A stretch of 30,720 nucleotides of DNA from a virus. This document shows, one piece after another, positions 5,622 to 28,828 of the stretch (within the stretch, counting starts at the first letter, position 1; every line of letters starts with the position of its first letter). A model generated the notes under the pieces. The model was given only the letters and a program-made list of their open reading frames with translations. It made no database searches and was not told where the DNA came from. Made by a program: the position numbers and the translations under genes. The stretch lies in IMG/VR virus record IMGVR_UViG_3300047168_000071, positions 1 to 30,720 of that record, one strand, 5' to 3'.

Positions 5622-6443
5622 ATGAAGCCCGAGCCCATCGAAGCCAAAATCATCGAACGCGCTCGACGCTTCGACGCCTCCGTCTTCCTCGGCGTCGGCC
5701 GCTACCGGACCGAGACATTCGACAGCCTTCCCGCCGCCCGCGATGCCGGCGAGCGGATCGCCCGCGAGGTCAATAACGGCCGGAAGGCCATGATCTACGC
5801 GATCACCGACGAAGGCCGCGCGGTCTTCGTGCCTGCCGCCTACCAACCCCAACCGAAGGAGCCTGCAATGACGACCAGCAAGACCGAACTGAACGGCGCC
5901 CAAATCTCGAAGCTCACCGCGATCATGACTGGCGGCGGCTTCAAGCGCGCGAATTCCCGCGACGCGGCGGTGGCGCGCTTCCTCAAGATCGCCGCTGAAA
6001 AGGGCATCGCCGAAGAGAAGGCCCGCGACTATCTCGCCGGCCCCTACGACATGGCCGAGCACGTCATCCGCGAGCACATCGAGGGCAAGCCGATGACGAT
6101 CCCGCAGGTCAAGGCCGCGCGGAAGTCGAAGCCAGCCGCGAAAGCCGAGCCGGCGCCCAAGGCAGTGCCAGCCGCGAAGGCCACCGAGCAGAAGCCCGCT
6201 GGCAAGCGCGCCGAAATCCTCGCCGCCGCCCAGGCGGGCAAGCTGCCCGAGCCGCCGGACTTCAGCGCCGCCACCCACACGCGCTTCCGCAAGAAGCTCG
6301 AAGAGGTGATCGCGCTGGCGAAGGCCGGCGACCTGAAGGGCCTGAAGGCTTACGCGATCAATCCGATCAGCAGCAGCCCGAAGGCCATCGACCGCTACCG
6401 CAACCTCGCGGTGATCGCGCTCGAAGCGCGAGCCGGCGCCTGA
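5622..6443 (+). CDS. Unknown three-part protein with Ala/Lys/Pro linker, first gene of + cassette
   Basis: A 273-residue protein of unknown function. Start ATG at 5622 has GGAGG upstream. It shows an N-terminal mixed alpha/beta domain (about 1-75), a helical domain (about 85-155), an Ala/Lys/Pro-rich linker resembling histone-H1 tails (about 160-195), and a C-terminal helical domain (about 200-273). The basic linker suggests nucleic-acid binding, but that is inference. An in-frame ATG at 5868 has its own ideal ribosome site (AAGGAG at 5856-5861, 6-base spacer), so a shorter product lacking the first domain may also be made. It is transcribed against all neighbours, which suggests later acquisition or separate control. 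Confidence 0.8.
   Translation: MKPEPIEAKIIERARRFDASVFLGVGRYRTETFDSLPAARDAGERIAREVNNGRKAMIYAITDEGRAVFVPAAYQPQPKEPAMTTSKTELNGAQISKLTAIMTGGGFKRANSRDAAVARFLKIAAEKGIAEEKARDYLAGPYDMAEHVIREHIEGKPMTIPQVKAARKSKPAAKAEPAPKAVPAAKATEQKPAGKRAEILAAAQAGKLPEPPDFSAATHTRFRKKLEEVIALAKAGDLKGLKAYAINPISSSPKAIDRYRNLAVIALEARAGA
5868..6443 (+). other. Possible internal translation start producing a shorter form
   Basis: The ATG at 5868 is in frame with the gene beginning at 5622. It lies six bases after AAGGAG, a better-placed Shine-Dalgarno than many annotated starts here. The short form would be 191 residues and keep the helical domain, basic linker and C-terminal domain. The same sequence could instead mark a recent fusion of two once-separate genes. 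Confidence 0.4.
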
Positions 6444-6646
6444 TGCGCCGGACGGTCATGATGGAGGTCGACATCTTCGATGCCGGCCTCTTGCTCGCCA
6501 CGGCTCGCCGGCACGCGCCGGAAGCGGACATCAGCGACGAAGCCGGTGCGCTGATCGCCCTGCTCGACCCCGGCGGCGGAGGCGACGCCTACGCCGGCAA
6601 CCTCAACGAGGCCGGCATTCAGATCGAGCAAACGACGGTCAGCTAA
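6443..6646 (+). CDS. Small acidic protein, second gene of + cassette
   Basis: A 67-residue acidic protein, start overlapping the previous stop as TGATG at 6441-6445, so the two are probably translated together. It contains helices and a Gly-rich turn (LDPGGGGDAYAG). The stop codon at 6644-6646 overlaps the stop of the convergent PLP-fold gene. No family recognised. Pairing of a basic, possibly DNA-binding partner with a small acidic protein is notable, but no toxin or antitoxin motif is evident. Confidence 0.65.
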   Translation: MRRTVMMEVDIFDAGLLLATARRHAPEADISDEAGALIALLDPGGGGDAYAGNLNEAGIQIEQTTVS

Positions 6647-7362
6647 TCAGCCGGCCCGGTCACATTCCAGAGAAGCACGCGGCCCGCCCCACGGCGGGCC
6701 GTCGCAATTTCCCAAGCCTTCGCGTCGTAGTGCGGATCGCTCGGGAACGGCGGGCGGCTCGCGGCCACCTGCCCGAAGCTGCGCGGGTGGACGTGAATGG
6801 TCGCCCCCGCAACATCCCCGGCCGATAGCTTCCGCCCGACCTGAACAACATGCCGGCGAGCGCCGGGCCAAGCCTTCGCCAGCGCCCGCGCCAGAACGCC
6901 GGAGCCGCTCGCGCACCAAACCTCGTCCGGCTCGACACCGGTTGCCCTGGCCGCGTCGGCGATCACGTCAATCGCCTCTGGCAGATCGAGCCCAAAGGGC
7001 GCCAGCGTCGCGCCCGTCGCCTCGCAATAGTCGCGCGCTCGCTTCTGAACCACCGTCAGGTAGCCGGGCGTCACCTGATAGACCTTCGCGCCGAGCCGCT
7101 TCGCCATCCATGCACGCGGATGCGCTTGCGCTCGCTTCGCGACGAACAGCGTCGCGCGCTTTCCCGTCTCCCGCGCCGCCCAAGCGAGCGCGCTTTGCGC
7201 GCCGCCTTCAGCCGGCGTGGCGTAGACCAACTCGTCGGCCGTCTCGAAGAGCCGGATCAGGAAGCGGGCCTTCGTGCCGCCCCCAATCAGATCGTCCCGG
7301 ACAACCAAAATCCCGTCATGCTCGACGACGGTCGGCGCCGGGATCAAAGCTCCTCGCCCCAC
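6643..7362 (-). CDS. PLP-dependent fold-type II enzyme-like protein (ACC deaminase / cysteine desulfhydrase-like)
   Basis: A 239-residue protein with hallmarks of the tryptophan-synthase-beta fold. The likely Schiff-base Lys31 lies in GGGTKAR, matching the GGNKxR motif of ACC deaminases. GGAQSA at 53-58 matches the following GGxQSN loop but with Asn replaced by Ala. A glycine phosphate-binding loop ASGSG lies at 151-155. It is shorter than cellular homologues (about 320-340 residues). The frame opens with GTG at 7362, overlapping the methylase gene by 19 bases; a TTG at 7347 would give a TTGA overlap and is a credible alternative start. Its position after ParB and methylase genes suggests a role with DNA modification or the ParB module. 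The substrate is unknown. Confidence 0.65.
   Translation of the reverse strand: MGRGALIPAPTVVEHDGILVVRDDLIGGGTKARFLIRLFETADELVYATPAEGGAQSALAWAARETGKRATLFVAKRAQAHPRAWMAKRLGAKVYQVTPGYLTVVQKRARDYCEATGATLAPFGLDLPEAIDVIADAARATGVEPDEVWCASGSGVLARALAKAWPGARRHVVQVGRKLSAGDVAGATIHVHPRSFGQVAASRPPFPSDPHYDAKAWEIATARRGAGRVLLWNVTGPAD
6681..6700 (+). terminator. Hairpin just beyond the + cassette, possible terminator
   Basis: A perfect 8-bp GC stem (GGCCCGCC and its complement) with a CCAC loop, 34 bases after the + cassette stop. It lies inside the 3' coding end of the convergent PLP-fold gene. Only a weak AATTT follows, so intrinsic termination is uncertain. Confidence 0.3.
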
Positions 7363-8258
7363 TGCCCCTCGGCCGCCGGGCCAGCGTCATCCGCCGGCAC
7401 GTCGCCGAATTCCACTTCGCCGATGGCCTCAGTCGCCCGCTTCGGATCGCCCTTCACGAAGACGAGGACGTTCTGATGCGTCTTGCCGAGCTTCCGCGTC
7501 GTGGCGAACTGCTTGCCCGCGCGGATCGGCAGCGAGCCGGCGGCGGTGACGAGCACCGCTTCGTTGTACAGCCGCAGCCCCGCCGCCTCGAAGGCGGCGA
7601 TGGTGTGCCACGGAAAGCCGAGATACATGCCCTTCGCATCGCGAACGTCGCCGACGACGAAGCACGCGAAGCGGTCCGCCTTCAGCTTGGCCGACGCCGC
7701 CGCAATGATGTCGGCGTAGGCGGCCCGGAAGTCCGCGTAATCCATCGTCGACAGATCGCGCGGATCGTCGCTGTAGACTTCGAGGTCCGCATAGGGCGGG
7801 CACGAGAAGACGAAATCGGCCTCGACATCGAGCGCCGGCAGCACCTCGCGGCTATCGCCGACGTGCCATTCCGGCACGATGTCGTCGCAAATGCGCGCCG
7901 CCTGATCTTGGTTGGCCTCGACCTGCTCGGGCCGAAGATCGACGCCCACATACTGGCGGCCGAGCTTCGCGGCGACGATGCCGCGCACCGATCCGCCAGC
8001 GAAGGGATCGAGCACAAGGCCGGCCGGCGGACAGAACCACCGGTAGGCAAGCTCGCAAAGCACCGGATCAAAAATCGAGGTGCCCGAGGCTGACGGCGCG
8101 CCGCCGTCCTGCCCATCGTAGGGATGCACGGTCGTCCCGTGCGTGAGGCCGCCCTTCAGGCTCGCCGTTTGCTTCCGCCGACCGACGACCTGATCGTTGA
8201 AGTTTCCGCCGCCGTGAACGGCGCCGGTCATGAAGGTCTTCGAACTCGGCTTCTTCAC
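7344..8258 (-). CDS. DNA methyltransferase (SAM-dependent, N4/N6 amino type)
   Basis: A 304-residue DNA methylase. The SAM-binding motif I is DPFAGGS at residues 84-90, followed by GVDLRPEQ (acidic ribose-binding motif), and the catalytic motif IV is SCPPY at 152-156. This order (SAM site before catalytic site) is the alpha/gamma-like arrangement. The protein starts with GTG at 8258 in a GTGA overlap with the ParB-domain gene. Residues 36-47 (GGLTHGTTVHPY) almost repeat the end of the ParB protein, so the two behave like one split polypeptide. It probably protects phage DNA from host restriction or alters gene control. The target sequence cannot be read from the protein. Confidence 0.88.
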   Translation of the reverse strand: MKKPSSKTFMTGAVHGGGNFNDQVVGRRKQTASLKGGLTHGTTVHPYDGQDGGAPSASGTSIFDPVLCELAYRWFCPPAGLVLDPFAGGSVRGIVAAKLGRQYVGVDLRPEQVEANQDQAARICDDIVPEWHVGDSREVLPALDVEADFVFSCPPYADLEVYSDDPRDLSTMDYADFRAAYADIIAAASAKLKADRFACFVVGDVRDAKGMYLGFPWHTIAAFEAAGLRLYNEAVLVTAAGSLPIRAGKQFATTRKLGKTHQNVLVFVKGDPKRATEAIGEVEFGDVPADDAGPAAEGQWGEEL

Positions 8259-8980
8259 GCCTTCGCCCTCGCGCGATACGGATCGGTCGTGGTGCGGTGC
8301 GTGAGCCCGCCACGGAGATCTTCCGTCTGGCTGCCCTTACGAGCGGCCCGCTTCTTCGGGTCGGGCTCGTTGATCGTGTCCGAGAACTTCAGCAGGTTCT
8401 CGCCGCGCCCAACTTCGCTCTGAATTCCGAGGGCCAGCCAGGCGCGCTTGCGCTCCTGCCACCATCCCTCGGCCGCGCGCAACACCGAGAACGGCGCCAC
8501 GCCGAACCGATCCGCAAGGTTGCCGACCTTCTGGCGGCCGGCGCCCTCGGCATCGCCGAGCAGCTTCTCGATCTCGTCGGCGTCGAAGCCGATCAGGTCG
8601 ACAGCGAAGCCCTCGTCGCGAAGCTCACCGAGCTCAATCTTGAGAAGCTCGTCGTCCCATTCGCCGCTCTCGGCGAGCTTGTTGTCAGCGAGCGTGTAGG
8701 CGCGCCGCTGCTCGTCCGTCCAGCCGCGCGCGATGATGACGGGCACTTCGGCGAGGCCGAGTTCCTTTGCCGCCAGCACACGACCGTGCCCCGCAACGAT
8801 CGTTCCGTCTTCCGCGACGAGGATCGGGATCGTGAAGCCGAACTCGCGCATGGAAGCCGCAAGCTGCGCGACCTGTTCGGGCGGATGCTTCTTCGCATTC
8901 CGCGCATAGGGGATCAGGTCGTCGACGGGCCATTTCTCGACCGCTTCAGCGAGCACGCGCACCGAATTCCGGACCGCCAT
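8255..8980 (-). CDS. ParB-domain protein linked to DNA methylase
   Basis: A 241-residue protein. Residues about 18-140 are a ParB N-terminal (sulfiredoxin-like) domain with the AGHGRVLAA motif at 63-71, the site used for nucleotide or phosphate chemistry in this superfamily. Residues 150-200 form a Trp/Arg-rich segment (EGWWQERKRAW), and the tail ends with GGLTHRTTTDPY. Start ATG at 8980 is preceded by GAGGAG. ParB domains are often fused to DNA methylases in phages; here the methylase is the next gene with a GTGA overlap. No partitioning partner (ParA) is present, so plasmid segregation is less likely than DNA modification. Confidence 0.85.
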   Translation of the reverse strand: MAVRNSVRVLAEAVEKWPVDDLIPYARNAKKHPPEQVAQLAASMREFGFTIPILVAEDGTIVAGHGRVLAAKELGLAEVPVIIARGWTDEQRRAYTLADNKLAESGEWDDELLKIELGELRDEGFAVDLIGFDADEIEKLLGDAEGAGRQKVGNLADRFGVAPFSVLRAAEGWWQERKRAWLALGIQSEVGRGENLLKFSDTINEPDPKKRAARKGSQTEDLRGGLTHRTTTDPYRARAKA

Positions 8981-9265
8981 CAAGGCTCCTCGACATGGGC
9001 GCAGCCGATCCGGAGAACCCCGAACCGAACTGGCAATTTGCAAACCAGAAAAACGCGCATATTTGGGGGCCGCGCGCGCCCGCATGGCATGCCCTAAGCC
9101 GAAAGGTACCTAAAGGCCGGCCGCCCCCTTGGCCTTGCTTGCCCCTTTGCCGGGCCACAGGCGCGCGGAGAATGCGCCCGCCGCGATGGGGCGCTAGGGG
9201 GGGCGCCCTTCGGACGAGCGCGCGACGTGCGCGGCCTGTGATCGATGCTCCGCCTTCGCCTTCGA
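8981..9265. promoter_or_regulatory. Spacer upstream of the parB-methylase unit with ATTTGCAAA site
   Basis: A 285-base gap with no convincing gene. It holds ATTTGCAAA at 9036-9044, 56 bases upstream of the parB-domain start, matching the motif found at three other operon heads. Palindromes GGCATGCC (9086-9093) and GGCCGGCC near 9116 are also present. The local AT-rich patch around 9030-9065 is consistent with a leftward promoter. Confidence 0.5.
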
Positions 9266-9793
9266 TCAGGCGAAAAGCCGCATCAACTCATGGTCGATGC
9301 GGCGCATGACGAAGGGGCCGACCTTCTCCCAAACGAGGACGGTCGGCTCGCGGACGATCTCGCGCCCGATGTTCGGACCGAACAGGCCCTTGATCGGCCC
9401 GCGCTCTTTGGCTCGCCGCTTGAAGACCTTCGCCCCGAAGCGGGGGACGATGAACGTGCTCTTGAAGACGCGCCTGATATTCCAGGGCGCGGCCGATACG
9501 CCTCGCGCGCCTTGGCGCGCGCCGAAGAGGTTGAGATTGGTCTCGCGCCCCTTGGCGATCAGCGAATAGGACAGATCGAGCGAGGTCGCTCGCTTGTTCG
9601 AGACGGCCTGATTGATGAGGCCGTATTTGATACCGGTCTGTGCGACCAGCGAGCGGCGCACCTGAGTGCGGCCTTGATCGCCGCCTCGATTGAGGGCGCG
9701 CTGATAGACCCGCCGCATGTCGCGGCTGCTGACGTAGCGAAGGACGCGACCATATTCGGCCGCGACCTGATCTCGCGTGATGACGACTTCCAT
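9266..9793 (-). CDS. Minor tail protein Z-like (tail completion) protein
   Basis: A 175-residue basic protein resembling lambda gpZ, which completes the tail tip proximal to the head. The pattern is an N-terminal helix, a run RRSLVAQTGIK, a central LFGARQGARGVSAAPW segment and a later RGPIKGLFGP motif, as in gpZ-family proteins where a GARxxxxGVSA strand precedes the basic IKxLxGP motif. Start ATG at 9793 with GGAGAG upstream. It is displaced from the head genes by the ParB/methylase/PLP group and the + cassette, which is odd for a structural gene. No other tail gene is in the window. Confidence 0.7.
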   Translation of the reverse strand: MEVVITRDQVAAEYGRVLRYVSSRDMRRVYQRALNRGGDQGRTQVRRSLVAQTGIKYGLINQAVSNKRATSLDLSYSLIAKGRETNLNLFGARQGARGVSAAPWNIRRVFKSTFIVPRFGAKVFKRRAKERGPIKGLFGPNIGREIVREPTVLVWEKVGPFVMRRIDHELMRLFA

Positions 9794-12673: not shown

Positions 12674-12928
12674 CTAAATCCCAGCCGCCGCTTCGATTGC
12701 CTTCCGCTTCAGCCAGGCCCAAAGCCTGTCGGCCGCCGCGCGATCCGTCGCGAGGTGATGGCGAAACAACCGCCGCAAGCGCCGGCCATAGGCGCGGCGC
12801 GCCGAGCGCGGGATCGCCTTCCAGTGGCCATTGCAAATCCACTCGGTGGGGACGAGGCGCCCTTCAGCGTTTGGCGCCTGCGTCGTCCGCCGGCAGAACG
12901 GGACGCAGCATGAGAGGCGACCGGTCAT
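12674..12928 (-). CDS. Small basic Cys-containing protein (84 aa)
   Basis: An 84-residue very basic protein with CCVPFC near the N-terminus and a later ICNGHW, a spacing compatible with a zinc site (CC/C plus C/H). The second half is an Arg-rich helix. ATG at 12928 overlaps the previous gene by ATGA. The basic helix and zinc-like residues suggest nucleic-acid binding, but that is inference. Similar small Cys/His phage proteins often relate to HNH endonucleases; no HNH histidine-asparagine pair can be confirmed here. Confidence 0.7.
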   Translation of the reverse strand: MTGRLSCCVPFCRRTTQAPNAEGRLVPTEWICNGHWKAIPRSARRAYGRRLRRLFRHHLATDRAAADRLWAWLKRKAIEAAAGI

Positions 12929-18674: not shown

Positions 18675-18983
18675 TCACGCCGGCGCCTTTCCAAGAGCGG
18701 CGCGGCCGGCGGCCCTGATGCGGTAGACCTTCGCACCCCGCCCCGCCCAAATTTTCCTGCCGTTCTCGCCATCGGGCGGGTCTTCCCCGCCGCGCTGTTT
18801 GAACTGGACGAGGCCCTTCTTTGCGAGAGCGTTCAGGCTGCCGGAATGATGGCTGCCGTTGGTCCCGCCGATGTCCATCGGCTGAACCCACTTCCTCGGA
18901 TACAGGCTACGGTGGTTCGCGAAGTCGAGGCCCTCAAGGGCCTCGCGCTGGTTGGGGGTGAGCTTTCCCTTGCGGGCGGTCAC
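18675..18983 (-). CDS. Winged-helix-like small protein (102 aa)
   Basis: A 102-residue basic protein with the shape of a winged helix: GTNGSHHSGSLNALAKKGLVQFKQRGG is a recognition helix followed by a wing, then KVYRIRAAGRAAL as the closing strand and helix. Start ATG 18983 with ATGA overlap. Probably binds DNA and may act as a regulator or as part of the methylase unit. No named family. Confidence 0.75.
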   Translation of the reverse strand: MTARKGKLTPNQREALEGLDFANHRSLYPRKWVQPMDIGGTNGSHHSGSLNALAKKGLVQFKQRGGEDPPDGENGRKIWAGRGAKVYRIRAAGRAALGKAPA

Positions 18984-19576
18984 TTGCCGCCCCCTTCCCG
19001 CTCGAAGGCATCAGCGACCGCGAGGATCGTGTTCAGGGGCGTCAGCTTGCCGCGCAGATAGAAGAAATGGCGGACGAAGACCGCGCCCTTGTGGCCGTGA
19101 ACGATGTGGGCGCTGACCGAAACCGGCAGCCCGCCGAAGAGCCGGGCGACCGCAAGGCCCTCGACGAATTGCGCCCGGCGCCGCTCAAGCTCCTCAACGA
19201 CCGAGCGGCGAACCGCCTCGGCGCGGAGCTCGATCTCGGGCTTTACCGGCGGCTGGGAAATCTCGGCGCCCTTGATCGCGGCGCGGAGGAAGATCAGGTC
19301 GCGGACGACGGCGAAATTCGGGGAATAGCGAGCGGCGACCTCGAAATGCCGGTCGCGGACGTGGTGCAGATCGCTGGGGATGTCCCAATAATCGGCGTGG
19401 TTCTGTTTTTCGGTCTCAGGGGTGCGAGCGGCGAGGATCGCGCTCATTAGCTCGTCGTGGATCGAGGCATAGCCCCGGTTCAGGTTATCGAGAGCCCGCT
19501 TCCGTGCGGCTTCGCTTAGGAAGCCCTTCTCGAAGTCGGCCTGGGCGAAGGCGATGCGGTCCGAAACGGTAGGCAT
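18980..19576 (-). CDS. Hypothetical protein heading the second leftward unit (198 aa)
   Basis: A 198-residue protein with helices in the N-terminal half (including LNRGYASIHDELMSAILAA and DYWDIPSDLHHVRDRHFEVAARYSP) and a C-terminal hydrophobic segment (VSVSAHIVHGHKGAVFVRHFFYL). His-rich stretches could bind metal, but no catalytic pattern is secure. Start ATG 19576. It is the first gene after a 93-base spacer that contains two ATTTGCAAA-type sites, so it likely begins a separately controlled operon. Confidence 0.75.
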   Translation of the reverse strand: MPTVSDRIAFAQADFEKGFLSEAARKRALDNLNRGYASIHDELMSAILAARTPETEKQNHADYWDIPSDLHHVRDRHFEVAARYSPNFAVVRDLIFLRAAIKGAEISQPPVKPEIELRAEAVRRSVVEELERRRAQFVEGLAVARLFGGLPVSVSAHIVHGHKGAVFVRHFFYLRGKLTPLNTILAVADAFEREGGGK

Positions 19577-19602
19577 GGGCGGCGGCCCCTCGGTTGTTCA
19601 GC

Positions 19603-19628
19603 ATTTGCAAATTGCCATTTTTGCAAAT
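19603..19628. promoter_or_regulatory. Tandem ATTTGCAAAT-type operators
   Basis: Perfect palindrome ATTTGCAAAT at 19603-19612 and TTTGCAAAT at 19620-19628, centres 16 bases apart, with a third partial TGCAA at 19633-19637. They lie 27-52 bases upstream of the ATG at 19576 and in the AT-richest part of this spacer. Same motif as the operon heads at 25476, 26590 and 8980. Confidence 0.65.
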
Positions 19629-19986: not shown

Positions 19987-20529
19987 CTATCGGTTCGCAT
20001 CTTCGATGGGCTTGCGGTCGCGGACGAGCCCGACCGCGATCAGAAAGTAGGCTCGGGCGAGCCGGCGCTTTGCCGTCTCGCGAGCGAAGCCGCGCCGGAC
20101 CGCCTCGCGCTGCCAAGAGCGAATGCGCAAAGCGCGGCAGCGCAGCCAGATGTTCAGCGCGGCGAGCGCCTGCGCCTCGACGACATAGCGGCGCCACGTC
20201 AGCGCGTCCTCGGCCATCGTGACTTGGCGGGCGCTCGGCTGAAGCACGATCCGATTGTGGTCGCGGTCGCGCTCGCCCTCTTGCTGCTCCTCCTGCGCGA
20301 GCAGATCGGCGAACTCGCGAAGGACCGGCGGCCAGGCGTTGCCGAACTCCTTCGGCGCGGTCCGGCCCGACGTGCGCTCGATCAGGCGCGCCGCCTGGGA
20401 AAGCCGCTCGCGGATGATCTCGATGGCGTTCTCGGGCAGCCCCTCGGTCTCGCGGGCAAGCCGCCGAAGATCGGCGCCGGCCGCATGCTCGCGGACCGCC
20501 CGCCTCGCCTCTTGCCGATTGGCGCGCAT
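19987..20529 (-). CDS. DUF6362-like phage protein with helix-turn-helix (180 aa)
   Basis: A 180-residue helical protein. The pattern WPPVLREFADLL, then SARQVTMAEDALTW and RGFARETAKRRLARAYFLIAVGL resembles the DUF6362 family common in alphaproteobacterial phages, whose last helices form an HTH. ATG 20529 overlaps the helicase stop as TGATG. A longer upstream frame is the read-through of the helicase gene and is rejected. Function is unknown but it sits with primase and helicase genes. Confidence 0.72.
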   Translation of the reverse strand: MRANRQEARRAVREHAAGADLRRLARETEGLPENAIEIIRERLSQAARLIERTSGRTAPKEFGNAWPPVLREFADLLAQEEQQEGERDRDHNRIVLQPSARQVTMAEDALTWRRYVVEAQALAALNIWLRCRALRIRSWQREAVRRGFARETAKRRLARAYFLIAVGLVRDRKPIEDANR

Positions 20530-21848
20530 CAAATGCCCTCCATGTTCTGCTGCCCCTTGCCGAGATCGTCGCTTGCGGCGACTTCGGGCTCCCGCTCCTC
20601 GACGCCACGCAGCTTGACGCCGCGCACGCGCTTCCCGGCGAACCACATCCAGTGCCCCGACGAACCGATGACGCGATTTCTAATGAGGGATTTGGTCGCC
20701 CGGCCCCACCGCTGGCGCAGACGCCCGAGCACCTTTTCCTCGTCGCCTTCCTCGGTATTGGCATAACGCTCGCGGAAGAGAGCCCGGACCTTCTCGGCGT
20801 CGACCACGAGCGTGATGTTGCTCGGCGACTTCAGGTCTTGCGGCGGCATCTCGCCGTGCACGCCGATGGCGTCGCTCAAGACGCGGAGGAATTCGACCTC
20901 GCTCTGATTTGCGGGATAGCCGCGCTCGCGCCGGGCGCCATTCTCGTCGAGCGGCTGCTCGCGATTGACGACGACGCATGAAGTGATCGGGTCCGCATCG
21001 TCGTCGTGATCGACCGTGATCGGCTTCAACACGAACGGATGCGAGGCGCCGGCTGCGCCGGCCTTGAACTTCCTCACGACCCACTTGTTGGTGGGCTCCT
21101 CGTTGGATCGAGGCGTCACCTCCCAAGTGAAGTCGGCGGCGCCGAGAAGCGCCTCGTGGCCGCGCGGTCCCCGCCCGACCTCCTTCCCGCCGTGATGCAC
21201 GCCGACCACCGCGACCTGAAGCTCTTTCTGAATGGCCTCGCAATTGCGGACGAAGCCGCCCATGACCGCGCTGTCGTTCTCGTTGCCGCCGGCAAGCGCG
21301 CGGCTCACCGTGTCGATCACCACCGCCCCGACGCCGACGCCGCATTTCTCGCGCATCAGGAGGTCGATGCCGCGCACTTCCTCAGTCAGCCGCTTCGTGT
21401 CCGCGTCGCTCGATGCGAGGTCGACTGAAGTCGGCAGGAAGACGAACGGCAGCGGCGTCTCGGGATCAAGGCCCTGATTGAGCCGCCAAGCATGAAGGCG
21501 GATCACGAAGTCGTCGGAGCCCTCGGCGACGAGATAGACGACGCCGAAGCCGTTCAGGCGATAGCCGAACCACTCTTTGTCCTCGACGCGGCGCGCTTCG
21601 AGCGCGGCGGCCGAGCCGTTCAGCATCAGGTCGGCGAGCAAAAAGGATTTCCCGCAGCCGGGCGGCCCGAAGAGGATGCCGAACGATCGTGCGAGAATGA
21701 GGTCTTTCACCAGCCAATCGCGGCGGGCCGGCTTGCGGCCGGCCTCGTTGAACCAAGTCGCGCCGAAGTGCGACCGGAAGGGCTTGATGACCGGGAGCGC
21801 CAGGCGCTCGAATTCCTCGAACGAAAGGGTTGCCGGAACCTGCGTCAT
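20529..21848 (-). CDS. RepA-like hexameric replicative helicase / AAA ATPase
   Basis: A 439-residue RecA-fold ATPase of the RepA/AAA_25 type. Walker A is GPPGCGKSF at about residues 61-69, Walker B is GAVVIDTVSR, and the later VHHGGK and RGHEALLGAAD match the sensor loop of RepA-type helicases. The C-terminal third (about 330-439) carries a winged-helix-like region followed by an acidic tail. Start ATG 21848, ATGA overlap with the primase. It should unwind DNA at the phage fork with the primase encoded just upstream. Confidence 0.88.
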   Translation of the reverse strand: MTQVPATLSFEEFERLALPVIKPFRSHFGATWFNEAGRKPARRDWLVKDLILARSFGILFGPPGCGKSFLLADLMLNGSAAALEARRVEDKEWFGYRLNGFGVVYLVAEGSDDFVIRLHAWRLNQGLDPETPLPFVFLPTSVDLASSDADTKRLTEEVRGIDLLMREKCGVGVGAVVIDTVSRALAGGNENDSAVMGGFVRNCEAIQKELQVAVVGVHHGGKEVGRGPRGHEALLGAADFTWEVTPRSNEEPTNKWVVRKFKAGAAGASHPFVLKPITVDHDDDADPITSCVVVNREQPLDENGARRERGYPANQSEVEFLRVLSDAIGVHGEMPPQDLKSPSNITLVVDAEKVRALFRERYANTEEGDEEKVLGRLRQRWGRATKSLIRNRVIGSSGHWMWFAGKRVRGVKLRGVEEREPEVAASDDLGKGQQNMEGI

Positions 21849-23044
21849 TCCCCCGCCCCCTGCTGCGAGCGCAGCACATCGTTCCAATCGAGGCCTTCAG
21901 GCGCCATCGATACAAAGACGCGGAAGCTCTCGCGCCACCGCCGCGCAGCCGTGAGAAGCTGCGCGAGCGTCGCCGGGCGGTCGCTGTCACCGTCGCCGAG
22001 GATGAACACCTCCTCGACGCCATCGGGCAAGATCGCGCCGGGCCGGTCCGGATCGGGCTCGCCGTTGTAGATCGTCCGCTTCTTCTTCTGCGGATGAGGC
22101 AGCGTCCCGGTGGCGCCGCCGGACAGATTGCCGAGCGAGATCGCCGCCGCCACGGCGGGATCGTCGCCACCGATGCCAAGCTCGTAGCCGGAGCGCGAGG
22201 TCTCGATCCCCTCGCCCACGATGAGCGCGGGGCCGGGAGGCGACAAACGGATCAGGCCCCCGCCCGCTTTTCCTAGAATTTTCTTCGCACCATTTCGCCC
22301 AGGGCAAATCGGCACGAGCTTGCGCGGCGCCGCCGCGTCCAGATACGTCCGATGCACGCCGATGATCTCGCCGGCCGCGTTACGGATCGCCGCGAGCATG
22401 GCGGGGAATTCGCCAAGCTCGATCTGCTCCTGCGCTTCCTCGTCGGGATACCCCCAATAGGCAAGACGCTGCATGAAGCGAAGGTCGCCCGTCCAGCTAG
22501 GCGAGACCGAAAGACCGCGCCCCTGAAGGTACGCGGCGGCGTGGGTTCCGATGATGGGCGCGCCGGCCTCGAAGAGGTCGGCAGCGGCACGCGCGGATCT
22601 CCGCGAGCGCCGACCCTCGCTGTCCTCAGAGGGCGGCGGCGTCTCGCGGACGGCCTCTTCAGGAGGCGGCGGTTCCTCGCGCTTCGGCTCTGGCGCCGCC
22701 TTCTTCGGCGTCGCCGCTTTCTTCGGGCGCTTCTCCTTCCCCGGCGCCGGGCGGCCTGTCATCGTCTCGCAGGCTGTGAGAAAGCCGCAGTCGTCGATGT
22801 GCATCACCGCATCGATGTAGCTTCCGCCGCCGAAGCCCCGGCAATTGAATACGCGCTCGCGGGGATTGATCGAGAAGCGGTCCGTTCCGCCGCAGCGGGG
22901 GCAAGGCCCCACCCACTCGCCACCCACGCGCCGGAGCTTGGCGCCGCGCCCTTGGACAAGGGCAACGAGGTCGACAGCCTCGGCCTCGTCGCGCCAAGCG
23001 TTGAAGTCGGCCGTGCTTTGCGGATCAGACGACATCGAGATCAT
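21845..23044 (-). CDS. Phage DNA primase (CHC2 zinc finger plus Toprim)
   Basis: A 399-residue primase. An N-terminal zinc-finger segment has Cys48, Cys51 and Cys68 (CPRCGG and NCRGF); the fourth position expected for a CHC2 finger is Phe71 instead of Cys. A Pro/Lys/Glu linker (about 98-145) leads to the Toprim part, with VGEGIET and LGDGDSD giving the acidic metal site. Start given at ATG 23044 overlapping the upstream gene by 20 bases; ATG 23035 is equally possible and neither has a clear ribosome site. It makes RNA primers for phage replication together with the RepA-like helicase. Confidence 0.88.
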   Translation of the reverse strand: MISMSSDPQSTADFNAWRDEAEAVDLVALVQGRGAKLRRVGGEWVGPCPRCGGTDRFSINPRERVFNCRGFGGGSYIDAVMHIDDCGFLTACETMTGRPAPGKEKRPKKAATPKKAAPEPKREEPPPPEEAVRETPPPSEDSEGRRSRRSARAAADLFEAGAPIIGTHAAAYLQGRGLSVSPSWTGDLRFMQRLAYWGYPDEEAQEQIELGEFPAMLAAIRNAAGEIIGVHRTYLDAAAPRKLVPICPGRNGAKKILGKAGGGLIRLSPPGPALIVGEGIETSRSGYELGIGGDDPAVAAAISLGNLSGGATGTLPHPQKKKRTIYNGEPDPDRPGAILPDGVEEVFILGDGDSDRPATLAQLLTAARRWRESFRVFVSMAPEGLDWNDVLRSQQGAGE

Positions 23045-23390
23045 GCACCAATTCGCGGAGGAGAGACGGATCGGCCGCGAGCACCTTGCGGACGATCAGC
23101 GCGGCGAGATCGCCGGGATCGCGGTCGAGCTTGTCGGCGGTCGCGTTCAGGCGCTCGCGATCAGCGACTTTCCAGCGGACACAGAGGATGTCCTCGCCGC
23201 TGTTCTCACGGAGCAACGGAATAGCGTGGACGCGCAGCATCGCCCGCACGCGCGGCCCCGTCGTCCCGCCAATCGCGCGCGCGATCTCGCCCGCGCTGGC
23301 GCCCTGGCCGGCGAGATACGCGGCGCGCAGCTTGTCCGGGCCGTACCAAGGCCGGCGCGGCAGCGCGTGGCGATGTCGGGGGCGGCTCAA
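23025..23390 (-). CDS. GcrA-like helix-turn-helix protein (121 aa)
   Basis: A 121-residue protein that starts with TTG at 23390 directly after a full Shine-Dalgarno (AGGAGGTGAT); the TTGA overlap with the previous stop supports this. Residues 15-58 read like the GcrA DNA-binding domain: Trp15, then GASAGEIARAIGGTTGPRVRA and an HAIPL end, similar to the SxxxIAxxLGGxxRxxV pattern of GcrA. The C-terminal half is acidic and helical. GcrA is an alphaproteobacterial cell-cycle regulator that responds to methylated DNA, so a phage version may alter host timing. Homology is by pattern only. Confidence 0.68.
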   Translation of the reverse strand: MSRPRHRHALPRRPWYGPDKLRAAYLAGQGASAGEIARAIGGTTGPRVRAMLRVHAIPLLRENSGEDILCVRWKVADRERLNATADKLDRDPGDLAALIVRKVLAADPSLLRELVHDLDVV

Positions 23391-23680
23391 ATCACCTCCT
23401 CCTCGGCGCTGCGGCGCGGACGGCTTTCGCCGCTCAAGACGGAAAGGATCGCCTCGCGGTTCTTCTCGAAGAGATAGCCGAGGCGATAGCAGGCGACGCC
23501 CGCCTTCAGCATTCGAAGATCGGGCACGGTCCGGATATTGCCGAGGACAAGCGCCTTCTGGCTGGCGATGATCCGCTCGCCTTCCTCCATCGCAAGCACT
23601 GGAATTTCGCCGCTCACGAACTTCGGTGCGTTCCAGTCGGCCGGAAAATTCCAAGGGAGATCGAGGCGGCTTCCGGTCAA
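23387..23680 (-). CDS. Small hypothetical protein (97 aa)
   Basis: A 97-residue protein that begins with TTG 23680 in a TTGA overlap, GGAGG located 8-12 bases upstream. An upstream ATG at 23698 is an alternative. It has a Trp/Pro-rich N-terminus (LPWNFPADW) and a helical second half. No family recognised. Confidence 0.68.
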   Translation of the reverse strand: MTGSRLDLPWNFPADWNAPKFVSGEIPVLAMEEGERIIASQKALVLGNIRTVPDLRMLKAGVACYRLGYLFEKNREAILSVLSGESRPRRSAEEEVI

Positions 23681-23880
23681 TGCTCGGCCCTCCGGCATTC
23701 GGGCGTGCGCCCCTTGGTGTCGACGCGGACGCCCTTCACCTCGAATTCCACCCAAGGCAGGACGCCCGGCTCGTGCCGGGTGACCCGAACGATCTCGCAC
23801 TTGAAACAAACGCGGTCGGTCCGCAGCGGCTTGCGATAAGCCGGTGACCAGAGATGGCGCTGGCGACGAGGCGCGCTCAT
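23677..23880 (-). CDS. Small basic hypothetical protein (67 aa)
   Basis: A 67-residue very basic protein with CFKC in the middle (VCFKCEIVRVTRHEPG) and another Cys near the C-terminus (TPECRR). A zinc-binding or redox site is possible. Start ATG 23880 in an ATGA overlap. No named family; predicted beta-rich with WVEFEVKGVRVDT. Confidence 0.7.
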   Translation of the reverse strand: MSAPRRQRHLWSPAYRKPLRTDRVCFKCEIVRVTRHEPGVLPWVEFEVKGVRVDTKGRTPECRRAEH

Positions 23881-24131
23881 GCGCGCCCCCAAGGGCCGGT
23901 CTCCGGCGGCATCTTCGCGGCGAGGAATTCGCGGACAAGCGCGCGCTGCGCCGCGTCGATCTCGGAAAGCCCCGCGTCGGCACGTCCGTTGCGCCAGCCG
24001 TGCCAGTAGGAGCGCGAGCGATTGTCGCCGCACGGAAAGCCCGCCCGGCCGTCGTGGTAGCCCTCAACGACCTCGACGCTGTCGAGCGTCGCGAGATCGG
24101 CGAGCGTGATGATCGGGGTGCGCTGATCCAT
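23877..24131 (-). CDS. Ribosome-modulation-factor-like small protein (84 aa)
   Basis: An 84-residue protein. Its centre GYHDGRAGFPCGDNRSR followed by SYWHGWRNGRAD resembles the RMF pattern GYxAGxxG ... WxxGWR, the factor that dimerises ribosomes in resting cells. The N-terminus (TPIITLADLATLDSVEVVEG) is phage-specific. If functional it might lower host translation. Start ATG 24131. The resemblance covers short motifs only, so an unrelated small phage protein is possible. Confidence 0.65.
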   Translation of the reverse strand: MDQRTPIITLADLATLDSVEVVEGYHDGRAGFPCGDNRSRSYWHGWRNGRADAGLSEIDAAQRALVREFLAAKMPPETGPWGRA

Positions 24132-24139
24132 CGGCGCCC

Positions 24140-24724
24140 CTAGAACGGAATGTCTTCGGGCTCGCCCTCGACGGGCGCGGGCTCGGGCGGAGGGGTGAAC
24201 AGCGGCGTGGTCGCGATCCCGGCGCCGGGCTCCTCGACAGCGCAGGCGAAATCCCAAAGCGCGAGCGCGTCGCCCGCGTTGTGGTCGACGGGGTTCCACC
24301 GCAATTGCCGGCACCGCGCCATGACGGCCGCTTTGGGGTCCGGCGGCCGGCGCACGCCGAGAAAGTGCTGCCGCACGTCCTGAACGGAGACCTCGCGGCG
24401 GCGATAGACGCCGCGCATTTCGCAGATGCCCTCCGCCACAAGGGGAAGCCCGATCAGCACGCGAGCGGTGTTGAAATTGGTCTTCTTGCCCATGAAGCGC
24501 GGATCGAGCGGGACCTCGTAGTAGAGTTTCGAGACCGGGCTGACGGCGAGGAAGTCTATGAGCCACAGGATCAGGCCGCGAGCGACAACGCCGTTGTTCG
24601 ATCCCGGCGGAGCGAAGGCGACGGAGCCGGAGCGGGGCAGCGACCCCGGCTGCCCATATGCCCAACCAGTGCGCGTCGCGATGTCGAGCGCCAGAATTGG
24701 CGCTCGGGCGTTCGCATTTGCCAT
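24140..24724 (-). CDS. RuvC-like Holliday junction nuclease with SSB-like C-terminal tail
   Basis: A 194-residue RNase-H-fold nuclease. Catalytic acids fit Asp14 (LALDIATRTGW), Glu70 (YYEVP) and Asp152 with Asp158 (NAGDALALWD). Phages encode such enzymes to cut branched DNA before packaging or during recombination. The final residues EPEDIPF end the protein and copy the acidic DDDIPF-type tip of bacterial SSB, which recruits replication and repair proteins. Start ATG 24724. Length matches RuvC-like enzymes plus a short linker. The tail is visible at the extreme C-terminus directly before the stop. Confidence 0.85.
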   Translation of the reverse strand: MANANARAPILALDIATRTGWAYGQPGSLPRSGSVAFAPPGSNNGVVARGLILWLIDFLAVSPVSKLYYEVPLDPRFMGKKTNFNTARVLIGLPLVAEGICEMRGVYRRREVSVQDVRQHFLGVRRPPDPKAAVMARCRQLRWNPVDHNAGDALALWDFACAVEEPGAGIATTPLFTPPPEPAPVEGEPEDIPF

Positions 24725-24782
24725 GATGCCCCTCCGAGGCGCGCGCGCAGCGCCGGAGCGCCGCGCGACGCCCGCTGATCGC

Positions 24783-25148
24783 CTAGTGCTTCAGGGCCGC
24801 CTCGCCAAGCGGAAGGGCGGCGAACTCACCGAGGGCTTCGGCGCACGCCTTGAAGGTATCGACCTCGTCGTTGTCCAGCTTCTCGACGACCGCCTCCTTC
24901 TTCGCTTCGAGGAGGCGAAGGTCGACGTGGGCCTTCAAAATCTTCTTGGGGATGCCTTTGGCCTTCGCCTCCTCGAAGACGATTTCAATGCTTTCCCTGA
25001 TCTGGCGGCACCGGTTCATGTGCTGCCCTTTGGAGCTTTCGATCTCGCCGCGATGCCCCTCGATCTTCTCGATGAACTCTTTGAGAATTTCCCCGTCGAA
25101 GCCGTTGGTCGCCGCCTTCGCATCCTTAGCCGTCACGCGCTTTGCCAT
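24783..25148 (-). CDS. GapR-like (DUF2312) DNA-binding protein
   Basis: A 121-residue helical protein with the GapR core: ILKEFIEKIEGHRGEIES, then IRESIEIVFEEAKAKGIPKKILKAHVDLR. GapR clamps overtwisted DNA in alphaproteobacteria and supports replication and transcription of GC-rich chromosomes. This copy has an extra C-terminal helix (about 85-121). Start ATG 25148 after GAGGAG. Its position among the first leftward genes means it would be made early. Confidence 0.8.
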   Translation of the reverse strand: MAKRVTAKDAKAATNGFDGEILKEFIEKIEGHRGEIESSKGQHMNRCRQIRESIEIVFEEAKAKGIPKKILKAHVDLRLLEAKKEAVVEKLDNDEVDTFKACAEALGEFAALPLGEAALKH

Positions 25149-25194
25149 GTGCCGCATCTCCTCGTCGTGGGGGGTAGTCTCAGGTCGGAACGCG

Positions 25195-25476
25195 CTACTC
25201 GACCGCCGCTTCGGCCTCGACCGGCGGACGCGGAACACTCGCCGGCCATTCCAGCCCCGCCGGCCAGGCGCGCGAAAACCGCTTCATCCACTGGTCGTAT
25301 TTGCCGGCCCGCAGGTCGGCATCGGGATCGATGAGGATCAGGCGCGGCGTTGCCGCGCCGAGCACGTTCACGAGCGCCGAGCTTTCCTTCAGCTTGGTGA
25401 AGGCGCAGTAGGCGGCGATCACGCGCCGAAGGTTTTCCTTCAAGCGCGGGAGTTCGGGGGCGTATTCGGGCGTCAT
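25195..25476 (-). CDS. First leftward early gene, hypothetical (93 aa)
   Basis: A 93-residue protein with a helical N-terminal half (LPRLKENLRRVIAAYCAFTKL) and a beta-alpha segment (RLILIDPDADL). Start ATG 25476 lies inside an ATTTGCAA site at 25475-25482, so the start codon itself overlaps a candidate operator; GAGG is about 12 bases upstream. A longer frame from 25638 would cross the regulatory region and is rejected. No family recognised. Confidence 0.72.
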   Translation of the reverse strand: MTPEYAPELPRLKENLRRVIAAYCAFTKLKESSALVNVLGAATPRLILIDPDADLRAGKYDQWMKRFSRAWPAGLEWPASVPRPPVEAEAAVE

Positions 25477-25531
25477 TTGCAAGGCCGTCCTCGTTGGTTG
25501 CATTTGCAAATCATTAATCAGAGATGCAACC
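25475..25531. promoter_or_regulatory. ATTTGCAAAT operators of the early leftward promoter
   Basis: ATTTGCAA at 25475-25482 and the perfect palindrome ATTTGCAAAT at 25502-25511, within an outer inverted repeat GGTTGCA (25496-25502) and TGCAACC (25525-25531). The 15-base string GGTTGCATTTGCAAA recurs with one mismatch at 26518-26532. The arrangement sits across the leftward start region, where a phage regulator would act. Confidence 0.65.
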
Positions 25532-25538
25532 GATGCAA

Positions 25539-25572
25539 TTGGAAAAGTCAACGCGATTGCTAACTTTTCCAA
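25539..25572. promoter_or_regulatory. Second inverted-repeat operator in the switch region
   Basis: Perfect 10-bp arms TTGGAAAAGT (25539-25548) and ACTTTTCCAA (25563-25572) with a 14-base spacer, 65-98 bases upstream of the repressor gene. A weak TTGCTA (25557-25562) could be a rightward -35, but no good -10 is seen. This is a natural candidate for repressor binding and autoregulation. Confidence 0.6.
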
Positions 25573-25636
25573 GAGACAATAGTTTCCGGCCCGCGCGGCG
25601 GCCTCTTGAGGGGGCGAAAGGGAAAGCGCCAAGGCC

Positions 25637-26344
25637 ATGCAGTTCAGGAAAGACCGGATCGAGGCGCGCCTGACGGCGCTCGGGATCGATCAATTCACAG
25701 CCGCAGAGCGGACCGGCAAAGGCTCGCATTTCATCTACGACTTCATGATCGGCCGGAAGAAGTCGTTCAAAGGCGACGGCCCGACCAAGGTCGCTGAAGC
25801 CCTCGAATGCTCGCTCGAATATCTGACCGGCGCGAGCGGCGTGCCCGGCGATCCGCCGGCAGCGGCGCAGCTAGGCAAAAGCCTGCTGATCGTAGGGACT
25901 GTGGAGGCCGGCGTCTTCAAGAGCCCGCGCGAAGCCAAGCCGCCCCACGAGCGGTCCAATATCCCGCCGATCCCTGGCCATCCGGCCGAGGATCAGGTCG
26001 TCTTCAAGGTCGTCGGCGGCGGGCTCGATGCGCGAGGCATTGTGTCCGGGATGGTGCTCGTCGCCAGCCGCAGCAGCGCCCGAGCCGAGACCTTCAAGGA
26101 CGGCGAGATCATCGTCGTCGAGCACACCGCCCGCGACGGTCGCGGGGTCGAAATCAGCGCCCGCGAAGTCCAACATTCGCCAAATCGCGTCGAGCTTCGC
26201 GCGCCTTCCAAATCGGAAGAAATCGCACCCATCGTCCTGAAGCCGGAAAAGTCGTCGGGCAAATCCGCCAGCACGAAGACCGCCTCGGGCGGCTCGGTGC
26301 GCGTGATCGCGGTCGCGATCTTCGTCGCGATGATGCTCGCATAA
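25637..26344 (+). CDS. CI-like phage repressor with degenerate S24 domain
   Basis: A 235-residue regulator. Residues 5-68 form a phage-type HTH domain (ending KVAEALECSLEYLTGASG). Residues about 85-215 resemble the S24/LexA peptidase-dimerisation domain, but the usual Gly-x-Ser-Met nucleophile region reads VVGGGLDARGIVSG, with Gly-Leu where Ser-Met is expected, and the catalytic Lys region reads GVEISAREV without Lys. It therefore should not self-cleave. The end is a hydrophobic run VRVIAVAIFVAMMLA, either the last strand or a membrane-contacting tail. Start ATG 25637. It likely controls the operators on its left and right. Confidence 0.85.
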   Translation: MQFRKDRIEARLTALGIDQFTAAERTGKGSHFIYDFMIGRKKSFKGDGPTKVAEALECSLEYLTGASGVPGDPPAAAQLGKSLLIVGTVEAGVFKSPREAKPPHERSNIPPIPGHPAEDQVVFKVVGGGLDARGIVSGMVLVASRSSARAETFKDGEIIVVEHTARDGRGVEISAREVQHSPNRVELRAPSKSEEIAPIVLKPEKSSGKSASTKTASGGSVRVIAVAIFVAMMLA

Positions 26345-26589
26345 CAAGCTCTGAACAGAGTTAGGCTCTATCCACTAAATTCTATACTTCAGGGGGACGG
26401 CCCTTCGGGGCCGTCCCCTCTCATATACTTTTTCTTACTAAGGTAATTGAGTTGGTTAGCTCTTAACCCGCGCGGGGACGCCGCGAGCCTGACCTCATTT
26501 GCAAAATATTGCAATGGGGTTGCATTTCCAAAAATTTGGCGGCAACAATTCATCGCGCATTAACCGCGACGATGAAGGGAACCCGCCAC
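26345..26589. promoter_or_regulatory. Spacer with terminator and operator sites before the recombination operon
   Basis: A 245-base gap. It contains a small inverted repeat CTCTG-AA-CAGAG (26349-26360), the terminator, an AT-rich stretch 26420-26470, ATTTGCAAA (26497-26505), the palindrome ATTGCAAT (26508-26515) and GGTTGCATTTCCAAA (26518-26532). No gene is convincing. The last three sites lie 58-93 bases before the next start and probably control it. Confidence 0.65.
26393..26418 (+). terminator. Strong intrinsic terminator after the repressor gene
   Basis: Perfect 11-bp stem GGGGACGGCCC / GGGCCGTCCCC closed by a TTCG tetraloop, followed by an AT-rich run with five T residues (26429-26433). 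It isolates the repressor transcript from the recombination operon. Confidence 0.85.
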
Positions 26590-27783
26590 ATGAACGCCAT
26601 CACCCCGCCGACCGCGACCGCTTTCAAGGTCGGCAATCTTGCCGCCGGCAACAGCCGCTCGGACCTTTCCAGCCAGTGGATCAGCCGCCCGCGCGATGAG
26701 CGCTTTCTCTCGCTGAACGAGCTTTTCGCCTCGGTGAAGGCGCGCAGCGACGCCACCTTCGAGGAGCGCGTCGAGACGAAGCGCGTCGAGTTCATTGCCC
26801 CGGAAGCGAAGTCGGTCGAAGACACGCATCGCCTCACCATCGGCCTGCCGGATGGCCGCGAGGTCGCGCCGACGCATTGGAGCTTCGGTCAGCTTGCTGG
26901 GCTCGCCGATGCCCCCGCCGGCTATCTTCGCAAGCTTCCTTCGCAGATCGTCGCCGACGCGCTCGCCTATGGCATGCGCTACAACCGCGAGAGCGAGGCG
27001 ATCAAGCTCTATGGCCGCGCCGGCCTCGATCTTCGCGCCGCCACCGGTCCCGATTACGGCCGCATCTTCGACCACGAAGTTGTTCAGGCGGTCCAGCAGA
27101 TCGCGGGCAACGGCACCGGTGATGCCCGCTGGAAAGTGCCTGGCGTCCTCGACTGGCGCACGATGGTCTACGACCCCGAGCATCCGATCTCGCTCGACAC
27201 GACGACGCTCTACGCAAGCGACCGCGACGTTTTCATTTTCCTCGTCGATGACCGCAATCCGATCAGCATCGGCAAGCTTCCGAGCGGCGAAGATGATCTC
27301 GTCTTCCGGGGCTTCTACGTCACGAATTCCGAAGTCGGGACCGGCTCGCTGAAGATCGCGGCCTTCTACCTTCGGGCGGTCTGCGGCAACCGCATGCTTT
27401 GGGGCGTCGAGGGCTTTCAGGAGGTCTGCATGCGCCACAGCAAGTATGCCCCGGCGCGCTTCGTCGAGGAGGCGCGGCCGGCGCTTCAGTCCTTCGCGGA
27501 CGGCTCGACGACCCGCCTCCTTGAAGGGGTCGAGAAGGCGAAGGCAGCGAAGGTCGCCAGCGAGAAAGACGAGGCGCTGGCCTTCCTCGCCGGCCGGGGC
27601 CTCAGCCGCAAGCGGGCGCTCGAAGTCTACGAGAGCGTCGAGCAGCACGAGGGCCGCCAGATGCGGACCGTTTGGGATGCTGCCCAGGGCATCACGCGCG
27701 TCGCGCAGACCATCCCCTTCACCGACAACCGCATCGAATTCGAGCGGATTGCCGGCGGTCTGCTCGACAAAGCCGCCGCCTGA
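26590..27783 (+). CDS. DUF932-type phage/plasmid protein
   Basis: A 397-residue protein with the DUF932 layout found in many phages and plasmids: an N-terminal mixed region, a central RAATGPDYGRIFDHEVV segment, GFYVTNSEVGTGSLKIAAFYLRAVCGN, and a helical C-terminal third. Its molecular activity is not established; gene neighbours in other elements point to DNA recombination or replication. Start ATG 26590 with AAGGGA upstream; ATG 26572 is an alternative. It heads the rightward recombination operon. Confidence 0.82.
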   Translation: MNAITPPTATAFKVGNLAAGNSRSDLSSQWISRPRDERFLSLNELFASVKARSDATFEERVETKRVEFIAPEAKSVEDTHRLTIGLPDGREVAPTHWSFGQLAGLADAPAGYLRKLPSQIVADALAYGMRYNRESEAIKLYGRAGLDLRAATGPDYGRIFDHEVVQAVQQIAGNGTGDARWKVPGVLDWRTMVYDPEHPISLDTTTLYASDRDVFIFLVDDRNPISIGKLPSGEDDLVFRGFYVTNSEVGTGSLKIAAFYLRAVCGNRMLWGVEGFQEVCMRHSKYAPARFVEEARPALQSFADGSTTRLLEGVEKAKAAKVASEKDEALAFLAGRGLSRKRALEVYESVEQHEGRQMRTVWDAAQGITRVAQTIPFTDNRIEFERIAGGLLDKAAA

Positions 27784-27800
27784 CCGGCGGCTTTGATGGG

Positions 27801-27827
27801 TAGGGCGGCGTGCGGCGCGCCGCCCTA
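27801..27827 (+). other. Intercistronic hairpin between DUF932 and exonuclease genes
   Basis: Perfect 10-bp stem TAGGGCGGCG / CGCCGCCCTA with the loop TGCGGCG. No T-run follows, so it is more likely an RNA-processing or stability element than a full terminator. Confidence 0.5.
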
Positions 27828-27871
27828 TTCCCCCGAACTTCTCGAAGTCCCTTGCATCCGAGGCCACCGGA

Positions 27872-28828
27872 ATGCGCGCTCTCAGAGCCCCGTCTGCTCC
27901 CATTGTCGAAAGCTACGAGATCGACCCCGCCGCCCGGCGCGACGAATGGCTTAGCCTCCGCGCCAGCGACGTGACCGCGAGCGTCTCAGCGGCGCTCCTC
28001 GGCATCCATCCCTACAAGAGCCGCTTCGCCCTCTGGCAGGAAAAGGCCGGCCGCGTTGCCGAAGACGCGGAAGAGACTGCCGCCATGATCCGAGGGCGCG
28101 TCCTCGAAGCGCCCGCGCTCGATCTTCTCGCCATCGACAAGCCGACTTGGCGCATCGAGCGGCCGAACGTCTATCTCCGCGACGCTGCGGCCCGCATGGG
28201 CGCAACCCCCGACGCCTACGCCATCGATCCCAAGCGGCCCGGCTTCGGCGTGGTGCAGGTCAAGTCGGTCGAGAAGTCGGTCTTCCGCAAGAATTGGTTT
28301 GACGAGACCGGCGAGGTCGAAGCGCCGCTTTACATCGCCGTCCAGACCATTCAGGAGGCGCATCTTGCCGGCGCCGCCTGGGCGTGCGTGGCCGCGATGG
28401 TCGTCGGCTTCGGCCTCGAAATGCACGCCATCGAGGTTCCGATCCACGCCGGCTTGATCGCGCGGCTGCGGACCGAGATCGCGAGCTTCTGGAAAAGCAT
28501 CGCGGAGGACAATCCGCCGACGCCCGATTACGGGCGCGACGGCTCGCTGCTCGCCGGCATCTATGCCAGCGACAACGGCCGCGAGATCGACCTCTCAGGC
28601 GACAACCATCTTCCCGTCATCCTCGCCGAGCGCGCCGAGGCGAAAGCCCGCGTCAAGGCCGACGAAGCCCGCATCGCGGAGATCGAGACCGAGATCATCG
28701 CCAAGCTTGGCGATCACGAGCGCGGGTTCATTCCCGGCTGGTCGATCAAGCGGCCCCTCATTCAGCGGCCCGGCTTCTACGTCGATCCGACCGAGTACCG
28801 CCGTCTCAACATCAAGCAACTGGCATAA
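27872..28828 (+). CDS. YqaJ-type phage exonuclease (lambda exo-like)
   Basis: A 318-residue exonuclease that resects one DNA strand to supply single-stranded DNA to RecT. PD-(D/E)xK motifs are visible: Glu79 (RGRVLEAP), Asp114 (GATPDAYAID) and QVK at 129-131 (GVVQVKSV), with Gln in place of the usual Glu before x-Lys. The N-terminal TASVSAALLGIHPYKSRFALW is the characteristic YqaJ opening. Start ATG 27872 after GAGG. Located with recT, it completes a RecET-type module. Confidence 0.9.
   Translation: MRALRAPSAPIVESYEIDPAARRDEWLSLRASDVTASVSAALLGIHPYKSRFALWQEKAGRVAEDAEETAAMIRGRVLEAPALDLLAIDKPTWRIERPNVYLRDAAARMGATPDAYAIDPKRPGFGVVQVKSVEKSVFRKNWFDETGEVEAPLYIAVQTIQEAHLAGAAWACVAAMVVGFGLEMHAIEVPIHAGLIARLRTEIASFWKSIAEDNPPTPDYGRDGSLLAGIYASDNGREIDLSGDNHLPVILAERAEAKARVKADEARIAEIETEIIAKLGDHERGFIPGWSIKRPLIQRPGFYVDPTEYRRLNIKQLA

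Follow-up and report, generated by a model that had tools for sequence, protein, structure and literature searches.

The window, here meaning the whole stretch of 30,720 nucleotides of viral DNA that was analysed (IMG/VR record IMGVR_UViG_3300047168_000071, positions 1 to 30,720), carries a repressor gene (25637-26344, forward strand) flanked by a replication operon that runs leftward and a recombination operon that runs rightward. The leftward early operon opens with a gene in the position of Cro for a small helical protein (phrog_7669; 25195-25476, reverse strand) and continues with genes for a GapR-like protein, a RuvC-like nuclease, a primase and an AAA_25 helicase, together with small genes (20529-25157, reverse strand). 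The recombination operon (26590-28828, forward strand) encodes a DUF932 protein and a YqaJ/RecE-like exonuclease. A perfect 11-bp hairpin located 3' of the repressor gene (26393-26418, forward strand) is a probable terminator. The gene map was built from codon usage, with 92.5% of the window being assigned as coding and approximately 7.5% called non-coding.

Judging from sequence profiles and a predicted structure, the 25637 protein is a lambda-type repressor with a 434/P22-type HTH and a LexA-type C-domain. Approximately the first 63 positions matched the profiles of 434 repressor (CI), P22 C2 and 434 Cro (best E 3e-6; 434 CI and P22 C2, E about 3e-6 to 5e-6), and the remaining part matched LexA (E about 1e-3). 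The AlphaFold model (pLDDT 86) resembled the LexA C-domain with Z 14 and the P22/434 HTH with Z 8 to 9; the protein thus joins the lambda/434/P22-type HTH and the LexA-like C-terminal domain that are looked for in a lambda-type repressor. In the alignment, Ser119 and Lys156 of LexA are replaced by Gly and Arg, respectively, hence the window repressor does not carry the catalytic Ser and Lys that mark an SOS-cleavable S24 protein, and none of the aligned relatives has a Lys at the Lys156 position. This protein is therefore unlikely to undergo SOS cleavage and, going by these residues, is probably not cleavable by RecA. A membrane-anchored repressor was also considered and dropped, as the hydrophobic C-terminus corresponds to the last strand of the LexA-like domain.

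Repeated boxes around the repressor gene

A reading made from the sequence only had placed copies of one AT-rich palindrome at 25475, 25502, 26497 and 26524, marking the heads of four transcription units. All four sites were found when the sequence was read directly, of which only 25502 is a perfect copy of ATTTGCAAAT; 26497 (ATTTGCAAAA) has one mismatch, and 25475 (ATTTGCAAGG) and 26524 (ATTTCCAAAA) have two each. The list was incomplete: the copies at 19603 (perfect) and 19619 (near) and a weak site at 9036 were absent from it. The boxes do lie at divergent heads, but the count has to be lowered, with two intergenic regions heading three units (the leftward early operon, the repressor and the recombination operon). 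A 15-mer said to repeat on the two sides of the repressor does so, GGTTGCATTTGCAAA at 25496 recurring as GGTTGCATTTCCAAA at 26518 with one mismatch (93% identical).

In its most complete form, the site is a longer dyad, TTGC-N4-(G/C)CAA, of which ATTTGCAAAT represents one half plus overlap; the dyad on each side of the repressor reads TTGC-ATTT-(G/C)CAA, i.e. TTGCATTT(G/C)CAA. On the left, the candidate primary operator dyad GGTTGCATTTGCAAAT (25496-25511, forward strand; TTGC-N4-GCAA) is accompanied by a secondary box, ATTTGCAAGG (25475-25484, forward strand), which overlaps the start codon of the leftward gene. Further half-sites, ATGCAACCGATGCAA, TTGGAAAAGT ... ACTTTTCCAA, with 10-nt perfect inverted arms, are situated between the leftward gene and the repressor (25523-25572, no strand assigned). 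On the right, a secondary box region, ATTTGCAAAATATTGCAAT (26491-26514, forward strand), precedes the candidate primary operator dyad GGTTGCATTTCCAAAA (26518-26533, forward strand). The second box is exactly 27 bp from the primary on the left and right alike, so that the boxes form tandem dyads as operators would, with one full dyad per side and a box 27 bp away. Several other boxes have one good half-site only, and for the left-flank boxes more than one framing is possible, either as a TTGC/GCAA dyad or as the 8-bp palindrome itself. Two box spellings, TTTGCAA and TTTCCAA, are both present in the window. Repeats of this operator-like kind to the left and right of the repressor, heading the replication and recombination operons, are what a lambda-type region would be expected to have.

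The boxes are strongly enriched and are confined to non-coding DNA. ATTTGCAAAT with at most one mismatch was matched five times against 0.18 expected from shuffles of the window, and TTTGCAAA, the top over-represented palindromic 8-mer of the window, was seen five times against 0.16 expected (approximately 31-fold). A motif equally frequent in coding regions would have spoken against a regulatory role; none of the seven TTTGCAA/TTGCAAA places falls within a called gene. One of these, at 12831, lies in a 266-bp gap which may be an uncalled gene, and this occurrence is probably incidental. A site-matrix scan of the window returned only non-coding positions among its best 14 places, and the leave-one-out ranks were 3 to 16 of 61,412 for the main sites and 43 for the 9031/9036 site. 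Intergenic DNA is somewhat AT-richer than coding DNA, hence chance in AT-rich sequence might be proposed as the source of the boxes. However, the non-coding DNA is only 37% AT, and TTTGCAA occurs there 11 times over both strands, whereas its 420 anagrams occur 0.15 times on average and Markov resampling of the non-coding DNA yielded a mean of 0.36 sites (maximum 4). Counts so far below 11 refute this explanation, which is left with virtually no probability; shuffles, anagrams and Markov resampling thus bear out the original view that the motif is unlikely to be fortuitous.

A strict sigma-70 scan detected no promoter in either operator region. Upstream of DUF932, five phages have an invariant TTGC tetramer at the same place, including phages with differing boxes, and the TTGCAT upstream of DUF932 is therefore probably a -35 element whose 3' side is overlapped by the operator; the TTGCAT of the right primary dyad probably doubles as the -35 of the recombination operon. 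For the leftward early promoter, a candidate -35, TTGACT (25546-25551, reverse strand), lies in an AGTCAA column conserved in two relatives, L009 and L012, with no convincing -10 found for it. A candidate repressor promoter, TTGCTA-N17-TAGTTT (25557-25585, forward strand), has a TTTCCAA box in its spacer and a counterpart at a similar position in both L009 and L012. The invariant TTGC might be taken to mean that the repeats are promoter elements, with TTGCAT as -35, and not regulator sites. We regard this as very unlikely, as it accounts for the GGTTGCAT part on the right only and leaves unexplained the ATTTGCAAAT copies, the 27-bp tandem and the change of box with repressor described below.

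Boxes and repressors in related phages

Relatives were collected via DUF932 and repressor searches. The gene order of small leftward gene, repressor and DUF932 is kept in these phages, and in most of them repeated boxes flank the phage's own repressor on either side, with the box sequence differing between phages: TTTCCAAA in L009, TTTCCAA plus TTGCAAC on the left in L012, GTTGGAAA in L013 and L015, AGTTGGAT in L010, AGTTAGAT in L093-L099 and AACCGC in L007. The flanks of the repressor had weak boxes only in L092 and none detected in L098. In ten phages, which are not all independent and among which similar boxes of relatives raise the background, 135 7-mers were common to own left and right flanks, compared to a mean of 82 with the flanks swapped, and none of 20,000 permutations reached 135. 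Own flanks thus match beyond swapped ones, which indicates that the boxes track the repressor. Such a change of box with repressor fits operators, and is not explained by promoter elements, host-factor sites or composition.

The repressors closest to that of the window, those of L009 and L012, also have the dyad spacing TTGS-N4-SCAA in common with it; this dyad occurs in both flanks of the repressor in the window (2 sites) and in L012 (4 sites), and in the right flank in L009. The more distant repressors of L090, L093 and L095 are accompanied by 8+3+8 dyads, for example AGTTAGAT-TTT-ATCTAACT. With the flanks sharing boxes and the boxes changing with the repressor in relatives, control of the divergent units by one regulator, as the sequence-only reading had suggested, is the best fit.

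The regulator could in principle be other than the repressor. Mycobacterial MtPrpR and MtRamB have been mapped to TTTGCAAA-type sites (PMC6765138), and a ParB-like gene is present at 8255; these would favour sites of a host regulator, or of replication or partition (iterons, ParB-type sites). For a host factor, however, one box would persist across phages, whereas the sites of the relatives surround the repressor and change with it, and we consider this explanation most improbable. MtPrpR and MtRamB read the same 8-bp palindrome as that of the window but are of unrelated function and host, and the overlap is probably a coincidence. Reading of the TTGCA-type boxes mainly by the small leftward protein (25195-25476), or jointly with the repressor as by lambda CI and Cro, is unlikely but has more in its favour. 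This protein is encoded divergently and adjoins the operators, the TTTGCAA and TTTCCAA spellings coexist in the window, and in L012 an HTH relative of the repressor occupies its place: the first leftward gene there (L012:939-1211) encodes a short HTH protein, divergent from the repressor and 59% identical over 71 residues to the HTH of the window repressor, which on this similarity is a Cro-like arrangement. The best structural match of the model of the small leftward protein is an XRE regulator, but its Z of 5.3 is too low to count, no HTH was detected in the protein by sequence profile, and the relatives have boxes on both sides of the repressor regardless of the identity of the leftward gene.

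No near match to the window was found among deposited phages, and a first scan of genome contigs with the repressor as query returned no relatives. Scans of viral contigs for composite operators detected only unrelated DNA (GC 30-48%) without any window gene, and no second phage with the box specificity of the window. The isolate genome IMG 2545824690 contains two contigs, L089 and L094, with related repressors and the boxes TTTCCAA/GTTGGA and AGTTAGA, respectively; these are possibly heteroimmune prophages co-resident in one isolate.

A probable lambda-type switch and its distal sites

We conclude with good confidence that the repressor encoded by the phage itself uses the boxes as its operators, in a lambda-type lysis-lysogeny switch. 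Repressor dimers would bind a dyad of approximately 14 bp, GTTGCA-TT-TSCAAA, with one strong half (ATTTGCAAA), presumably in a cooperative manner. Bound repressor would cover the putative promoter elements between the repressor gene and each operon, and both lytic operons, for replication and recombination, would be switched off in the lysogen; the repressor would also tune its own promoter, as at lambda OR and OL.

Boxes away from the repressor were found at two places. The distal pair ATTTGCAAAT (19603) and TTTTGCAAAT (19619), 16 bp apart (19601-19628, no strand assigned), lies in a 93-bp gap ahead of a leftward gene (phrog_8776; 18980-19576, reverse strand), two small genes beyond the helicase. 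The protein of this gene had no relatives in the viral scan and none in five related records. The pair would probably exert the same control on a second leftward promoter, or act as a roadblock within the long run of leftward genes. The second place, within a 285-bp gap that precedes the leftward ParB-like/methyltransferase genes, has a weak and tentative site, ATTTGCAAAC (9036-9045, no strand assigned). In L007, whose repressor and box are different, a perfect dyad, TGCGGTTA-GAT-TAACCGCA, lies immediately past the helicase gene, and an inverted pair with a spacing of 20 bp was seen in five of six AGTTAGAT-type phages, at about 13 to 17 kb from the repressor. It therefore seems that a third operator locus is common, though with no one fixed place and with differing targets. 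The recurrence of a distal cluster despite unrelated boxes leads us to suggest, tentatively, that in these alphaproteobacterial phages operators at three loci (left, right and distal, past the replication genes) combined with an SOS-uncleavable repressor could allow control of a mid-operon gene and another route of induction.

In mycobacteriophage L5, over twenty asymmetric 13-bp sites are read by a monomer. The window is like L5 in having sites away from the immunity region, but it differs from the stoperator system in its few sites, their dyad character and the LexA-like C-domain of the repressor; instead of many asymmetric sites genome-wide, it has two distal places only, of dyad type. In L5-type phages, short intergenic gaps outside the immunity region also contain repressor sites (PMC9283540). 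Gifsy-type repressors are non-cleavable and induced by antirepressors (PMC3121763), and the window repressor, probably not cleavable SOS-wise, is alike in the lack of cleavage. The C repressor of Rhizobium phage 16-3 likewise belongs to an alphaproteobacterial temperate phage and acts on the PL and PR promoters (cited in PMC3694467). The closest parallel in layout is lambda OL/OR with CI and Cro, and its 434 and P22 variants, where the repressor gene also lies between two operator regions with tandem sites, OR heading the replication side and OL the recombination side as in the window, and where the 434/P22-type HTH with a LexA-like C-domain has its counterpart. Compared to lambda, the window has another site sequence, no recognisable Cro as first leftward gene, no LexA catalytic residues and extra distal sites. 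As far as could be found, the operator set is new in sequence and ordinary in kind, i.e. lambda-type.

These boxes provide predicted operator sequences for a poorly studied temperate phage family of Hyphomicrobiales and relatives, in which the distinct specificities (TTGCAA, TTTCCAA, GTTGGA, AGTTAGAT and AACCGC types) predict which phages share immunity. IMG 2545824690, apparently with two related prophages having different boxes, would be a natural test of heteroimmunity.

Two fixed locations for a distal operator were considered and rejected. A place beside a tail-completion gene was not upheld: the operator is close to this gene in several phages, but the side varies, and the 9036 site of the window is weak. 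A place ahead of the window gene at 5622, as in L105, was discarded as no box is found there in the window. The tail-completion/Neck1-like gene of the window (9266-9793) is 64% identical to the gene near the L093-type distal operators (L100, L101 and L104). In the L091 phage, the boxes TTTTTCCAACC and GTTTCCAACG (L105:860-910; G004:14860-14910) are directly ahead of a rightward gene resembling the product of window 5622-6443. The leftward genes at 6643-8980 encode a ParB-like protein, a DNA methyltransferase and a threonine-dehydratase-like PLP enzyme; a similar group is found in L018, and the group is possibly a DNA-modification cluster.
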